DNA from: Bdellovibrio sp. ZAP7
GTDB lineage: Bacteria; Bdellovibrionota; Bdellovibrionia; Bdellovibrionales; Bdellovibrionaceae
NCBI RefSeq assembly: GCF_006874645.1
Contig: NZ_CP030082.1
Location: 2,976,001-3,040,000, forward strand
Reading direction: 5' to 3'
DNA length: 64,000 nucleotides
Position 1 is the first letter of the stretch, and each line of letters begins with the position of its first letter. This document shows positions 45,664 to 51,791 of this stretch, piece after piece. The position numbers were made by a program, and so were the translations under genes. Below the pieces are notes generated by a model that saw only the letters and a list, made by a program, of their open reading frames with translations, was not told the origin of the DNA and did no database searches.

Positions 45664-46140
45664 TTACTTATACTCGACATTCTCGATCGTTACGAAAACT
45701 TCTCCAGACGGTTTGATGAGTTTTACCTCATCTCCGAGCTTCTTTCCCAGCAGAGCACGCGCCACCGGCGACTTCCACGAAATCTTTCCGACCTTGGGAT
45801 CAAACTCATCTTCACCGACAATCTGATATGTGAGCTCGTCACCATCTTCATTAACCAACGTCACTGTGGCGCTGAACAAAACCTTATCGCCCTTCATCAA
45901 TTTCGGGTCCACGACCTCTGCATCTTCAATTCTTTTCGTAAGAAAATGCACACGACGATCAATTTCACGCAGACGTTTTTTTCCATACTGATAATCAGCA
46001 TTTTCAGAACGATCGCCATTGCTCGCTGCCCACTGCACGATCTCCACAATCTTGGGACGCTCGCCATGCATGAGTGCCTGGTACTCGTCGCGGAGTTTCG
46101 CTAGACCTTCGGGGGTGATGTAGTTCTTGTTATTATCCAT
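45664..46140 (-). CDS. greB: Transcription elongation factor GreB/GreA family
   Basis: From ATG 46140 (MDNNKNYITPEG) the product has 158 residues. The N-terminal coiled coil carries the acidic tip GDRSENADYQYGKKRLREID that enters the RNA polymerase secondary channel. The YQYGKKRLREIDRRVHFL sequence is GreB-like. The C-terminal FKBP-like domain includes PVARALLGKKLGDEV. It rescues backtracked RNA polymerase by stimulating transcript cleavage. Other ATGs at 46149 and further upstream are possible. It is divergent from the FecR operon. Confidence 0.93.
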   Translation of the reverse strand: MDNNKNYITPEGLAKLRDEYQALMHGERPKIVEIVQWAASNGDRSENADYQYGKKRLREIDRRVHFLTKRIEDAEVVDPKLMKGDKVLFSATVTLVNEDGDELTYQIVGEDEFDPKVGKISWKSPVARALLGKKLGDEVKLIKPSGEVFVTIENVEYK

Positions 46141-46191
46141 AGGTAACATACTAGACCATTTTCCGGTCACATTCCAAGTCTTTTGGACCAT

Positions 46192-46218
46192 CAAATAAAT
46201 CGAGAAATTTTCCGATAA
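46192..46218 (+). promoter_or_regulatory. Candidate FliA (sigma-28) promoter of the FecR-cyclase operon
   Basis: CAAA (46192-46195), exactly 15 bp, then TCCGATAA (46211-46218). The -10 matches 7 of 8 bases of GCCGATAA and the -35 core matches three of four bases of TAAA at the right spacing. The predicted start lies at about 46225, on top of the ribosome-binding site, so the leader would be very short. Confidence 0.5.
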
Positions 46219-46237
46219 ATGTATGAGGAGGAAACAG

Positions 46238-48112
46238 ATGAAAAATCAAGTAAAGAGATTAGTTGTCGCTGCGATAAGCTCGTCATCTGTTTTTGCGCTG
46301 ACGTGGATTTGGTATCAATCAACGGATAAGCAGCAAAACTCTCATACCAATGAGAAACCGCTGGCTTACGTCGGCAAAGTTGTCGACGATATCCAACGCC
46401 GACCAGCAACGCGCTTGCTGTGGCAACTCGTGAACTCCGGTGAACCACTTTACGATGGCGAAGCTATTCGCACCTCTGATCGCGGTGAAGTGCGAATTCA
46501 ATTTACGGATTCAGATCGCTATTTGGATTTGGAACCAGAGTCATTGATCGTTATCAAAAAATCCCAGGGCGAAATTGCACTTGATTTGATGGAAGGTAGT
46601 CTTTTCGTTAATGCGAAAGCTGGCAACGAAGATGGTAATGCTCCCGGACTCGTGCTTAATTCCGCGAATGGTAAAGTCGATTTGAGTCAGGCATCCGCCT
46701 CTCTTTCTAAAGGAAGTGGAAACTCTGTCGATGTCCAGGTCCTTGAAGGTAAAGCTTCGGTGAAATCGAAAGACGGTAAAAGTCAGGAGATCTCAACTGG
46801 AAGTTTCGGGGCCTTGGGTGCGAGTGGTTTGCAGTTTGATAAAAATAGTGTGAAAATCACCAGTCCGAATTTGCAAAAACCGGTGGCTATGAATGCCGAT
46901 GATTTGCAACCGATTCCCATTAAATGGTCAGGCTTTCCGGCAGATGCGCAAGTCTCTCTTTTCACCGGCACCAATCGCCGTGAGATGAGGGAAATGGCCA
47001 AAGCACCTGCGGGTGATTCTGTCATTATGGCAAAGCTTCCATTTGGTAAGCACTATTGGAAACTCGTGGCGAAATCTGCGAATGGCGAGTCCCTTGGCGA
47101 GAGTCCTATTTATAGAACAGAAATCCAGGCAAGATATGCCCCGACTGTGACTTTCCCTACAGCAGATGTGGAAATTCCGGCTCACACCAATCCGTTTGAT
47201 ATGACTTTCAAATGGCAAAAAAGCGATGACACTCGTCAGATGACTTTGCAGGTGTGGTCAGATGCTAAGCTGACACAACCCATTGCCACAAAAACATTTA
47301 CAAGCGAAGACAGCTACACAATGCCCGGCCTGCAAGAAGGCACGTATTACTGGCGCATGACTTCTTACTTTAATGATTCAGACAAACCGGTGCTGGGTAA
47401 AATGCAGAAGTTCTCTGTGAAGTTCACAGAGATGTTAAAGCAAGCTTCAGCTGAAGCTGCGGCGCCAACCCCGGCTCCAAAACCAGAGGTAAAACCTTTG
47501 GCCTTCACGATGACGGAATCGCAAATGACTCAGTACTTTGTGGATTCTCCGAAAGTGAATATGTCCTGGGGTGCCGAGAACATGCAAAATGTCAGCGCTT
47601 ACCGCGTAAGACTGCATGATGAAACTCAAACGGCAGCTGATGTTCAGCCCGTGGAAGTGAAAGAAAACAAATTGACGGCAGCAGTTCCAAAACCAGGTCG
47701 TTATATTGCATCGATCGAAGCCGTGGATAAAGACGGTCAAGTGGTGGGCTCGGGTACTTCTCAAGCCATCACGGTCACACCGATGCCGATCCTGAAAGCT
47801 CCACTATTCATTCCAAATGAAGGCCCGCTGCAAGCCTCAATGGATGGCCGCTCTACTTTAGAGTGGAATAAAATTGATGGTGCTGCTGATTACGAACTCG
47901 TGATCAAAAAAGACGGCAAAGAATTGAAACGCACTAAATATAAGAACACATCCACGGCCATCCGCAATCTTTTGCCGGGTGAATATGAAGTGATGATCTC
48001 GGCTCAAGACACTTACGGTCGTGCTGGAGAAACAGGACCAGTTCGTAAACTGATCGTGCCGGATAAATCGAACTTAAAGGCCCCTACTTTAAAGAAGATT
48101 AAAGTGAATTGA
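46238..48112 (+). CDS. FecR-domain envelope protein with FN3-like repeats
   Basis: The start was set at ATG 46238, because GAGGAGG lies 6 nt upstream and the earlier ATG 46223 overlaps it, giving 624 residues. One N-terminal transmembrane helix (RLVVAAISSSSVFALTWIWY) is followed by a FecR-type domain (about 45-185; GEPLYDGEAIRTSDRGEVRI, LDLMEGSLFVNA, VDVQVLEGKASV). Three or more FN3/Ig-like repeats with YYWRM, YIASIEA and YEVMIS strand ends make up the rest. It probably spans the periplasm from the inner membrane. The stop overlaps the next start by one base (TGATG). Confidence 0.85.
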   Translation: MKNQVKRLVVAAISSSSVFALTWIWYQSTDKQQNSHTNEKPLAYVGKVVDDIQRRPATRLLWQLVNSGEPLYDGEAIRTSDRGEVRIQFTDSDRYLDLEPESLIVIKKSQGEIALDLMEGSLFVNAKAGNEDGNAPGLVLNSANGKVDLSQASASLSKGSGNSVDVQVLEGKASVKSKDGKSQEISTGSFGALGASGLQFDKNSVKITSPNLQKPVAMNADDLQPIPIKWSGFPADAQVSLFTGTNRREMREMAKAPAGDSVIMAKLPFGKHYWKLVAKSANGESLGESPIYRTEIQARYAPTVTFPTADVEIPAHTNPFDMTFKWQKSDDTRQMTLQVWSDAKLTQPIATKTFTSEDSYTMPGLQEGTYYWRMTSYFNDSDKPVLGKMQKFSVKFTEMLKQASAEAAAPTPAPKPEVKPLAFTMTESQMTQYFVDSPKVNMSWGAENMQNVSAYRVRLHDETQTAADVQPVEVKENKLTAAVPKPGRYIASIEAVDKDGQVVGSGTSQAITVTPMPILKAPLFIPNEGPLQASMDGRSTLEWNKIDGAADYELVIKKDGKELKRTKYKNTSTAIRNLLPGEYEVMISAQDTYGRAGETGPVRKLIVPDKSNLKAPTLKKIKVN

Positions 48113-49734
48113 TGCTGAAGAGACTTGCCACCCTTCTTTTACCAATGCTTCTTATCTGCGGAGTGACCGCCAAGGCCGAGCCATATCGTCGCCTGGTGAA
48201 CTTTGAGTGGGAGCAAATTGAAGGTGCAAAATCTTATGACATCGAATTGACCCAGGTGAAAAAAGAAGGCGAAACCGGCAAGCCTAAAACCTTTAGCTTC
48301 AAAACTGCAGATTCCATCTGGAATGGTCGCCTGACGCCAGGTAAATACATGATGAAATTGCGTGCGCGCGATTATCGTGGAGTTCCGGGTGACTGGTCTG
48401 CCCCAAGTGAATTCAACGTGGGCTTGGATAACGTCAACATGAAGTCCCCTGCTCCGAAATCATCTGTCGCTTCAAACGACGAAGAAAAAACAGATGTGGA
48501 ATTCAAATGGGATCCCGTGGGTGGCGCCGATCAATACGCGTTCGAACTGACGTCCGATGATGGAAAAACAAAAATTTCTGAAATCGTGAAGGAAGCGAAG
48601 TTTAAAACTTCAGTTCCGGTTGCGAGTTCTTACACTTGGAAAGTCACAGCGCAAAGCTCCGAAGGCATTGCAAGTGATGCAACTTCCACAGCGCAGTTTA
48701 CGGTGATGGGTAAAGCCCTGGCCGCCCCTGCGATTGTAAAACCAGAATCCATGTTCGTACGCGAAATCAAATGGACTCGCCCGGACTATATCAAAGATTA
48801 CGAAGTGATCGTGGCGCGCGCGAATCCTACGACCAAAAAATGGGAAAAAGTTAAAACGTATGAAAACTATACGGAAGACTCTTTGCCATTTGATTCCTCT
48901 TGGGAAGGTGGAAAATACCAGATCATCTTGAAAGCCAAGTCAGATCTGCGCCCGGCTTCCCCATCCAGTAAAATTATTTTTGACGTTCGCGAAGGCGATC
49001 GTTCGGCCGCCGCGGAATACACCGCTTTGGTTCGTCGCTCGATTGAAAAAACCAATGGCTGGTATGGTATCGCAAGTTACCTAGTCACCGACATGAAGTT
49101 CTCGGGTTCAAACCCAGAAAAGAATTCTCAGGTCGCCTATGATGCCTTCGGTGGTACGGGCCGCGTGGGTGTTGGTTGGAATGGTCGCAAGTCTCCTTGG
49201 GGATTTTTGGCCATCATCGACATGAGCGGCTTCACAATCGGTGGACAAGTTCGTACCTTTGCAGCAGCAGAGGTGAACGCCGTTTATAAGCAACCCGTTG
49301 GTGATCGTGCAGAACTTCGCTATCAAGTGGGAGCTTTTTATAAAGAACTTCCAGAAACAATTGGTGATCCATTTACCGGCACTTCAGAAAATCAAACTAT
49401 CAGCTCCGTGGGTCCGCATGGTGGCGTGGAGTATTGGTATTCGCTGACCCCGAAATGGGGCATTCAACTGAATGCCCACCTTTATGCATCGGTGATGAAA
49501 GTATCGACGCCCAACGGCCAGGACATTTCACCAACGATGTCGACTCAATTTGGAATTTTAGGCAGCTATAGATTTAGTGAGCGATTCACAGGACTGATGG
49601 GTTATGCACGCCGCGAAGACCGTATGTCCTATAAAGCCATCCCTTCGACGACGAACTTTGCGTTGGATGGCGATGTCAATGAATCTGTAGTTGTCGGCAA
49701 TTATCTTAACTTCTTCGCGGAATGGAGTTTCTAA
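48112..49734 (+). CDS. Exported FN3-repeat protein with C-terminal outer-membrane barrel
   Basis: This 540-residue protein has a signal peptide (LATLLLPMLLICGVTAKAEP). Residues 25-310 form three FN3-like repeats similar to those of the preceding FecR protein (FEWEQIEGAKSYDIELTQ, FKWDPVGGADQYAFELT). From about 310 the sequence changes to alternating aromatic strands with Gly, ending in NFFAEWSF, the C-terminal Phe signature of an outer-membrane barrel. It probably links barrel and periplasmic stalk. The start codon overlaps the upstream stop, and its stop overlaps the cyclase start (TAATG). Confidence 0.78.
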   Translation: MLKRLATLLLPMLLICGVTAKAEPYRRLVNFEWEQIEGAKSYDIELTQVKKEGETGKPKTFSFKTADSIWNGRLTPGKYMMKLRARDYRGVPGDWSAPSEFNVGLDNVNMKSPAPKSSVASNDEEKTDVEFKWDPVGGADQYAFELTSDDGKTKISEIVKEAKFKTSVPVASSYTWKVTAQSSEGIASDATSTAQFTVMGKALAAPAIVKPESMFVREIKWTRPDYIKDYEVIVARANPTTKKWEKVKTYENYTEDSLPFDSSWEGGKYQIILKAKSDLRPASPSSKIIFDVREGDRSAAAEYTALVRRSIEKTNGWYGIASYLVTDMKFSGSNPEKNSQVAYDAFGGTGRVGVGWNGRKSPWGFLAIIDMSGFTIGGQVRTFAAAEVNAVYKQPVGDRAELRYQVGAFYKELPETIGDPFTGTSENQTISSVGPHGGVEYWYSLTPKWGIQLNAHLYASVMKVSTPNGQDISPTMSTQFGILGSYRFSERFTGLMGYARREDRMSYKAIPSTTNFALDGDVNESVVVGNYLNFFAEWSF

Positions 49735-51545
49735 TGAGAATACCCATCTCAACCAAACTCATCACAGTGACGATCCTGATTCTGGTGGCCTCCACCGGCG
49801 CGATCACACTGATTTCATCAAACTACTTCGAGAAAAAAGCCTCGGAGCAAGTCGATATCGCCAATCTGGAGTCTGCTTCGGCAAAAGCCAAGGAAGTTGA
49901 TAACATCATCGCATCGTTGATTGATAAAACACGTACGAATGGTTCCCTGCTGATGAAGGGTGCAGCAGCAGCGGAAGATTTGGATTTCAACTTTACTAAA
50001 GACAAGAACTTTGTGGCTTTGGAAGTATTGAAACTGAATGGCTCCTCTGTGGAGTCCGTGGCTCGTAAAGTAAAAGAAGATGTTCTGAAGCCTTACCTAT
50101 TGGGTGAATCTTATTTCGTCAACTTGCGTGCTTGGCAACAGTTCCCGGTGCGCAACTTGGCTGAAGGTAGCATCGAAATCAAGAATGCGTCTTATCCAAA
50201 AGCTCCCGCGATGATCACGATCGGTATCCCGTTGGTGAAAGATGCTCAAGGGAAAATCACTCACGTGGTTTTGGCTGACGTGATGATGGCTCCCCTGCAA
50301 AAACCTTTCACGGATCTTTCCGAGCGCACTCAATATCTGATTGATGGCCAAGGTGAGGTTCTTGCCCATAAAGACGAACAAAAAGCGATCTCTCGTTTAA
50401 GCTTGAAAGCCTACCCGTTCGTTACAAAAGCGATGAACACCAAGTCTCCGCAATATCAAACGAAATTCGTAGACCCGGAAACACAGTCTAACTTCTTTGG
50501 TGCGTCTGTTAAAACTTCCTATGGGCCGATGGTAATTTCGCAAACATCTGAGGCTGCCATCCTGGAGGTATCGAACGAAGTTAAACGCCGAGCGATATTT
50601 GTGGCTGGTTCTGCAATCTCGCTGGCGATCTTCTTTATCTTCTTGTTCTCTATGACCCTAACCTCCCCGATTGAAAAATTGGCGGGTTTGATCAACATGG
50701 TTTCCAGAGGTAATTTCGATGTAAAAGCCCGTGAACATGTGAAATCCCACGACGAAGTGGGCGACCTGGCTTCCGCGTTCGACCACATGACCGAGGGTCT
50801 GAAAGAGCGCGATAAAGTTAAAAGCTTATTCTCTAAGTTCCACGGCTCGGCGGTGACTGAGGACTTGATCGGTAAAGACATCGGAGTCGGCGGTCAAAGT
50901 AAAAACGTGGTGGTCTTCTTCTCGGATATCCGTGGTTTCACGGCGTTCTCTGAAAAACGTTCTCCTGAAGAAGTCGTAGAAATGCTGAATGAATACTTTG
51001 GCGTGATGGTGGGAATCATCAATGCCCACGGTGGTGTCGTCGATAAGTTTATCGGGGATGCGATAATGGCGGTTTGGGGTGCTCCTAAAACGGGTCCAAA
51101 AGATGCATTCAATGCAGTTCGTGCCTGCTTGGAAATGCGCCGAGGCTTGGACAAATTAAATGAAACCCGCATTGCCCGAGGCCAGCCTCCGATCAATATC
51201 GGTATGGGCTTGCATGCAGGTCCTGCGATCTCGGGAACCATCGGTTCTGACGAGCGTATGGAGTACACAGTTATCGGCAATACGGTGAATACGGCTTCTC
51301 GTATCGAAGCTTCCACGAAAGCCTTTGGTGCTGACCTTCTGGTCACTGATTCGGTTATCGATCAAGTGGGTGATGCCTTTAAAACCGAGCTTGCGGGTGC
51401 TGCCGAAGTCAAAGGCCGCTCTGAGGCGATCAAGATGTATAAGGTCCGTGCCTACAAAGCTGGAGACAAATACGTCGAAGTCAAAACCCCGTATTCCGAT
51501 TACGAAGCGGAATCAGCTGATAAAGTGAAAATCAAAGCTTCTTAA
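49734..51545 (+). CDS. Membrane-bound class III adenylate/guanylate cyclase with CACHE-like sensor and HAMP
   Basis: The product has 603 residues from ATG 49734. A transmembrane helix at about 8-29, an extracytoplasmic CACHE-like sensor (about 35-280), a second helix (about 287-307), HAMP (about 308-360) and a class III cyclase domain (about 390-560) follow in order. Catalytic signs are the two metal Asp in FFSDIRGFTAF and IGDAIMAVWG, Lys in VDKFIGD, and Asn/Arg in NTVNTASRIE. The base-selecting position is Thr in EYTVIG, so cAMP is likely but cGMP is not excluded. It is coupled to the FecR and barrel genes, suggesting an envelope-to-cytoplasm signal. Confidence 0.93.
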   Translation: MRIPISTKLITVTILILVASTGAITLISSNYFEKKASEQVDIANLESASAKAKEVDNIIASLIDKTRTNGSLLMKGAAAAEDLDFNFTKDKNFVALEVLKLNGSSVESVARKVKEDVLKPYLLGESYFVNLRAWQQFPVRNLAEGSIEIKNASYPKAPAMITIGIPLVKDAQGKITHVVLADVMMAPLQKPFTDLSERTQYLIDGQGEVLAHKDEQKAISRLSLKAYPFVTKAMNTKSPQYQTKFVDPETQSNFFGASVKTSYGPMVISQTSEAAILEVSNEVKRRAIFVAGSAISLAIFFIFLFSMTLTSPIEKLAGLINMVSRGNFDVKAREHVKSHDEVGDLASAFDHMTEGLKERDKVKSLFSKFHGSAVTEDLIGKDIGVGGQSKNVVVFFSDIRGFTAFSEKRSPEEVVEMLNEYFGVMVGIINAHGGVVDKFIGDAIMAVWGAPKTGPKDAFNAVRACLEMRRGLDKLNETRIARGQPPINIGMGLHAGPAISGTIGSDERMEYTVIGNTVNTASRIEASTKAFGADLLVTDSVIDQVGDAFKTELAGAAEVKGRSEAIKMYKVRAYKAGDKYVEVKTPYSDYEAESADKVKIKAS

Positions 51546-51565
51546 TTGTGACTTAATTCAAAAAT

Positions 51566-51600
51566 AAAAACGGCGACCTCAGAGTCGCCGTTTTTATTTT
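51566..51600. terminator. Bidirectional terminator after the cyclase operon
   Basis: AAAAACGGCGAC (51566-51577) pairs with GTCGCCGTTTTT (51584-51595), loop CTCAGA, flanked by A and T runs. Confidence 0.95.
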
Positions 51601-51791
51601 TAAAGCTGCTTTAGGATTTCTTCCACAGTCTCTTTCACTTCAACCTTGTCATGCACATCAAGGCTGAAGCGAATCAGAGTGTAAGACTCTTTTACGCCGC
51701 CTTCGTTTCGCTCATGTTGTGACATCCAGTGGATGTGATCAGCGTTGATATACAAAACCTCATGGGCCTTAGTCACTTTAACGAACTTCAT
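51600..51791 (-). CDS. Small FlbD-like protein
   Basis: This 63-residue protein has GGGGGAAG just before the ATG. Its pattern (VLYINADHIHWM ... LIRFSLD ... KVEVKETVEEILKQL) has the strand-Asn-Ile, then strand, then VKETVEEIL helix order of the FlbD family of small flagellar-associated proteins. No flagellar genes are near, so it may instead be a general small regulatory domain. Homology is suggestive only. Confidence 0.6.
   Translation of the reverse strand: MKFVKVTKAHEVLYINADHIHWMSQHERNEGGVKESYTLIRFSLDVHDKVEVKETVEEILKQL

Follow-up and report, generated by a model that had tools for sequence, protein, structure and literature searches.

Whether Bdellovibrio could convert an event at its outer membrane into a cAMP signal is the question raised by a cluster of three genes in the analysed window, a 64-kb stretch of the complete 4.12-Mb genome of Bdellovibrio sp. 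ZAP7, a congener of B. bacteriovorus HD100. On the plus strand, the genes encode, in this order, a FecR/FN3 protein of 624 aa (46238-48112), an FN3 protein with a barrel of 540 aa (48112-49734) and a dCache-HAMP class III adenylate cyclase of 603 aa, predicted to be of class IIIb (49734-51545). At both junctions the stop and start codons overlap by a single base (TGATG at 48110-48114 and TAATG at 49732-49736), and the operon ends at a strong intrinsic terminator hairpin of 18 bp that is flanked by an A run and a T run (51560-51601, plus strand; RNA fold -23.8 kcal/mol, z -6.84). The three-gene operon with one-base overlaps that had been proposed from the sequence is thus upheld by both junctions and by the 3' terminator. 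The upstream boundary is formed by a divergent gene for a GreA/GreB-type elongation factor (45664-46194, minus strand; Pfam), the true start of which is probably located further inside the listed ORF. The FecR gene should start at the ATG at 46238, which is preceded by the ribosome-binding site AGGAGGA (46226-46232, plus strand) with columns strongly conserved in the genus, while 46192 is the first base of the promoter. Besides the GreA-type factor, the neighbours of the operon are a DUF3465 protein, a phosphate-type binding protein and an FtsX permease. The HD100 counterpart of the operon (1,049,550-1,054,805, minus strand) adjoins the same GreA-type gene (L173), which also recurs in L095.

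The FecR/FN3 protein contains a FecR domain (PF04773; 26.2 bits, cut-off 24) and fn3/Ig-like matches in Pfam. Its AlphaFold2 model (pLDDT 84) consists of a TM helix (residues 2-38), a FecR beta domain (about 43-215), four FN3-like domains and a flexible tail, and a Foldseek search with the whole model returned only long FN3/Ig arrays and no FecR-specific relative. In 24 orthologues (alignment A2) the TM helix begins after only a few residues, and an N-terminal cytoplasmic anti-sigma domain is absent from these orthologues and from the model. With almost no cytoplasmic part, the protein could therefore signal only sideways, in the membrane or in the periplasm. The C-terminal tail is conserved and reads APTLKKIKVN in Bdellovibrio, while distant families have variants, for example APKLRAPVVK. 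The resulting motif APxLxxhxV is common to barrel-linked FecR proteins from Bdellovibrio to these distant families, whereas it is lacking in a barrel-less FecR/FN3 paralog with a different C-terminus (REFTLYHQKNETFVK). In the simplest reading of these sequences, the tail would be a docking segment for the barrel partner. One genome (G026) that has the cyclase and a FecR protein with the tail, and in which the barrel was undetected, is either a counter-example to this reading or an assembly with a missing piece.

The product of the second gene has no Pfam match above the cut-off and no match to a TonB-receptor family. Its AlphaFold2 model (mean pLDDT 88.9) comprises a signal peptide, three FN3-like domains folded as beta-sandwiches (residues 27-292), a helix (299-311) and a barrel of ten long strands (316-540). 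The ten strands are antiparallel (316-539) and close with a C-terminal aromatic strand ending in ...LNFFAEWSF. Because the strands number ten and the final one ends in ...EWSF, both ends of the barrel should face the periplasm; the FN3 domains would then be periplasmic and the loops on the outside short. Conserved positions are found mostly within the barrel strands and the FN3 domains (alignment A1). The top structural match of the barrel is OpcA (Z 22.9 over 208 residues), followed by the omptins OmpT and Pla (about Z 17). Strand number and fold are the same as in these barrels, but the identity is about 10% (9-11%), the loops are short and three FN3 domains are placed in front. A reading as an omptin protease was considered on the basis of the common fold but not adopted at this level of identity.

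The barrel gene varies in several genomes. In a complete Bdellovibrio genome (G012; L085/L060) it carries a frameshift near residue 462, due to either natural loss or an assembly error, with FecR and the cyclase intact. In another genome (G004; L026, L105, L174) it lies outside the operon, as a diverged 613-aa copy on another contig, and members of genus g6 (G046, G051, G055 and G057) contain a second copy elsewhere in the genome that is 34-37% identical.

The third protein has the order TM, dCache, TM, HAMP and class III catalytic domain, with Pfam scores of 101 bits for Guanylate_cyc and 38.9 bits for HAMP; dCache_1 scores 30.4 bits, below its cut-off of 45. The residue set of the class III enzymes (PF00211) is complete, with two metal Asp, an adenine-pocket Lys, a Thr, and an Asn and an Arg for catalysis. 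These positions, known to determine catalysis and the choice of ATP (D398, K438, D442, T512, N519 and R523), are invariant in 24 orthologues (alignment A3). The combination of Lys and Thr is the pattern of class IIIb adenylate cyclases, and sequence matches in the PDB are bacterial class III cyclases such as CyaB. The protein is thus predicted to be a class IIIb adenylate cyclase converting ATP to cAMP. Class IIIb membrane cyclases such as CyaB have the same catalytic residues, including the purine-pocket Lys and Thr, whereas the enzyme described here is locked into a gene module with FecR/FN3 and the barrel. The architectures put forward in the sequence-only reading, i.e. FecR/FN3, an exported FN3 barrel and a Cache-HAMP class III cyclase, are all recovered by Pfam and AlphaFold2. 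Four adenylate cyclases are annotated in HD100 (PMC6717892), and by position and elimination the counterpart of the cyclase is bd1116. HD100 also contains the cAMP receptor Bd1971, a cAMP-activated c-di-GMP phosphodiesterase (PMC6717892), which together with the cNMP-binding matches (15 in each of two genomes) offers targets for the cAMP.

Co-conservation of the three genes, on which the proposal of a common module had been staked, held. Among 119 genomes of the order, strong matches to both the cyclase and FecR are present in 59 and to the cyclase only in 12, while 48 have neither and FecR only was found in none; the counts for the cyclase and the barrel are identical, with score thresholds chosen within this analysis. 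The corresponding Fisher p of 3e-22 is descriptive, as it ignores shared ancestry. More telling is the patchy genus g3, in which three genomes contain all three genes, ten contain none and one has only a diverged cyclase. Within Bdellovibrio, FecR adjoins the cyclase in 24 of 24 genomes and the barrel gene lies between them in 23, so that the module is contiguous in 23/24. In other families the cyclase gene is convergent with the barrel-FecR pair (L108, L109, L119, L120) or divergent from FecR-barrel (L176, L177, L179, L180 and L121). The linkage of the genes thus outlives changes in their order, from operon to convergent and divergent, and the deeper families keep them as divergent or convergent neighbours. 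At one of these loci (L121:4728-7867) the length is split differently, with just 298 aa in FecR and 748 aa in the barrel protein, which adds up to 1046 aa versus 1164 aa here. FN3 domains seem to have moved between the partners with the summed length about kept, as if a periplasm-spanning reach mattered. In a profile search around cyclases from other phyla (L123-L171), no FecR/FN3 or barrel neighbour was found, bar one FecR fragment below the cut-off near a Spirochaetales cyclase (L124).

The FecR/FN3 protein of the operon has a paralog that is likewise encoded beside a receptor. A second FecR/FN3 protein (209-224 bits to the FecR profile) is found in the genome of the window and in HD100, with its gene divergent from that of a TM-Cache-TM-HAMP-SpoIIE/PP2C phosphatase (L215:3753-7540, about 2615752-2619540 in the window's genome; L214:4198-8311 in HD100). 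By comparing match tables by hand, this neighbourhood was recognised in about 46 genomes. As in the operon, a homologous FecR/FN3 protein is placed beside a TM-Cache-TM-HAMP receptor, but the output is a SpoIIE-type phosphatase, the barrel is absent and the FecR C-terminus is different. The paralogous FecR/FN3 gene has a FliA-like site upstream and is followed by a gene for a PAS-Hpt-HATPase protein. A special kinship between the Cache domains of the cyclase and of the PP2C receptor was considered and dropped, since a Cache-only cyclase profile missed the PP2C receptor in two genomes and hhalign gave a probability of 7%; the match of alignment A3 to this receptor over residues 4-355 may be mostly HAMP and membrane frame. 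As the Cache domains are hardly alignable, the parallel rests on architecture and FecR homology. Each of the three FecR genes found in HD100 neighbours a gene for a membrane receptor whose output is enzymatic, which supports a role of FecR as a periplasmic receptor partner. It thus looks as if FecR/FN3 proteins partner Cache-HAMP receptors in the periplasm, the outputs of these receptors being exchangeable. Tentatively, the FecR/FN3 proteins might be grouped into a general co-receptor class of the periplasm that serves Cache-HAMP receptors with either cyclase or PP2C outputs. In the operon, the co-receptor would be coupled to a barrel through the tail and so provide sigma-independent surface signalling that turns the envelope state into cAMP.

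Expression of the operon would start from a putative FliA (sigma-28) promoter, CAAATAAA-N11-TCCGATAA (46192-46218, plus strand), which was read directly and has a -10 element that is conserved in the genus. In 24 genus-level upstream sequences, the seven bases CCGAAAA are on average 95% conserved compared to 59% in the preceding spacer, and in the -35 part a T and an A each reach 100%. Nearly all sequences of the genus have CCGAAA or CCGATA 25-27 nt ahead of the ATG, so that CCGAWA at a fixed distance, a TTAA/TAAA-like -35 and flagellin-like spacing are found genus-wide. The use of CCGAAA in place of CCGATA is normal for Bdellovibrio, as flagellin promoters carry both variants, and what appears to be the same flagellin promoter reads CCGAAAA in HD100 and CCGATAA in Bdellovibrio sp. 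ZAP7. Furthermore, GCCGAAAAG lies 5' of the mapped start of the attack-phase sRNA6, which is marked as FliA-driven (PMC3627812), and the genome encodes a clear FliA. The FliA-type promoter claimed earlier is present as written and its element is conserved throughout the genus, but the copy in the window is weak by itself: with a Bdellovibrio FliA matrix it ranks about 50 in the 64-kb window, so that the single site is no evidence alone and the support for the promoter is comparative. On these sequence grounds, the operon is likely to be under FliA control. Where the cyclase forms a separate unit, FliA-like elements of varying strength occur upstream of it (L108, L109, L110, L114, L119, L120, L176, L177 and L178), often at 14-16 nt ahead of its annotated start codon; either the mRNA would then be nearly leaderless or the start codon is misplaced.

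With about equal weight for and against, the operon can be read as an envelope-spanning sensor, a form of FecR-like surface signalling that ends in cAMP and for which the contacts, direction, stimulus and output would be as follows. The barrel protein would reside in the outer membrane, its three FN3 domains facing the periplasm. The FecR/FN3 protein, which a single helix would fix in the inner membrane, would reach outward with its FN3 chain and dock its tail on the barrel protein. Contact, spacing, damage or a small ligand could cause a change at the outer membrane, which FecR/FN3 would relay to the Cache domain that the cyclase exposes to the periplasm; HAMP would then set the production of cAMP for cNMP-binding effectors, e.g. 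Bd1971 in HD100. FliA would place the device in the swimming attack phase. A physical path from the outer membrane to cAMP is plausible. This reading draws on the even number of barrel strands with the FN3 domains N-terminal to them, on the confinement of the APxLxxhxV tail to barrel-linked FecR, and on the invariant catalytic set of the cyclase together with the known cAMP receptor in HD100. It is also favoured by the FliA-like elements in front of stand-alone cyclases in several genomes. The genomes in which the barrel is undetected (G026), far off (G004) or frameshifted (G012) speak against it, as do the short loops predicted for the barrel, the poor alignability of the two Cache domains and the whole-model pTM values (0.44 and 0.51), which do not fix the domain arrangement.

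Alternatively, FecR/FN3 and the barrel could mainly be a structural tether between the inner and outer membrane, with a co-regulated cyclase that independently senses a small molecule through its Cache domain. Arrays of FN3 domains together with a short-looped barrel of ten strands are indeed tether-like, the cyclase owns a periplasmic Cache domain, and it is a separate transcription unit in several deeper lineages. However, a general tether would not need a cyclase, and neither FecR nor the barrel ever occurs without it in the 119 genomes; the barrel-less FecR/FN3 paralog is again paired with a Cache-HAMP receptor. The tether is thus considered unlikely. The same absence of FecR without the cyclase, the joint absence of the genes in the patchy genus, the linkage kept through all three gene orders and the paralogous pairing in about 46 genomes argue for the envelope-spanning sensor.

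Prey recognition, in which the barrel binds prey surface material and cAMP triggers attachment or invasion, would suit a predatory genus, a FliA-type, attack-phase-like promoter and a barrel with an adhesin, OpcA, as its nearest fold. Nevertheless, the short extracellular loops predicted for the barrel are not those of a classic receptor for a ligand or for prey, the conserved positions lie mainly in the strands and FN3 domains, and the likeness to OpcA, at such low identity, says nothing on function, which renders this explanation improbable. A role in sigma/anti-sigma surface signalling of the FecI/FecR type, suggested by a FecR domain above the Pfam cut-off and by the adjoining outer-membrane barrel gene, is rejected as highly improbable, since its three defining features, a cytoplasmic anti-sigma domain, a neighbouring ECF sigma gene and a TonB-dependent receptor, are all absent.

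The envelope-spanning sensor is nevertheless comparable to FecI-FecR-FecA, in which an outer-membrane barrel with a periplasmic domain and an inner-membrane FecR likewise pass a signal to the cytoplasm. In the operon, however, the barrel is a ten-stranded, OpcA-like FN3 barrel rather than a TonB-dependent receptor, FecR has no anti-sigma domain, no ECF sigma factor gene is present among the neighbours and the output is an adenylate cyclase. If correct, the reading would carry FecR signalling beyond sigma factors, to second messengers. The module is conserved across the sampled genus and a large part of the order. It carries a FliA-type promoter, has a putative docking tail, a barrel partner and a cyclase as its parts, and bears on how Bdellovibrio senses prey contact or the state of its envelope and on the input to the cAMP-controlled c-di-GMP phosphodiesterase.

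No description of the three-gene module was found in the open-access literature that was searched, the scope within which the earlier label 'undescribed' stands. New here are also the pairing of the FecR/FN3 paralog with a Cache-HAMP-PP2C receptor and the tail that is specific to barrel-linked FecR. A comparable published arrangement is the adjoining pair of MtxA and a CHASE2 adenylate cyclase in Magnetospirillum (PMC4439547), where, as here, an exported protein with an Ig-like domain is encoded beside a membrane class III cyclase. In contrast to the operon, the cyclase of this pair has CHASE2 instead of Cache-HAMP, a barrel gene is not described and MtxA contains TPRs; the cyclase in the window has dCache_1 and HAMP and no CHASE2. 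The MtxA_IG-like family has no match in the proteins of the window and scores 16.8 bits, below the cut-off, in the HD100 paralog. Closer to the MtxA arrangement than the operon is a locus in HD100 without a FliA-like site (L216:6018-11641, about 2,560,017-2,565,640), where a CHASE2 adenylate cyclase gene is convergent with genes for a TPR protein and a 305-aa FecR protein.
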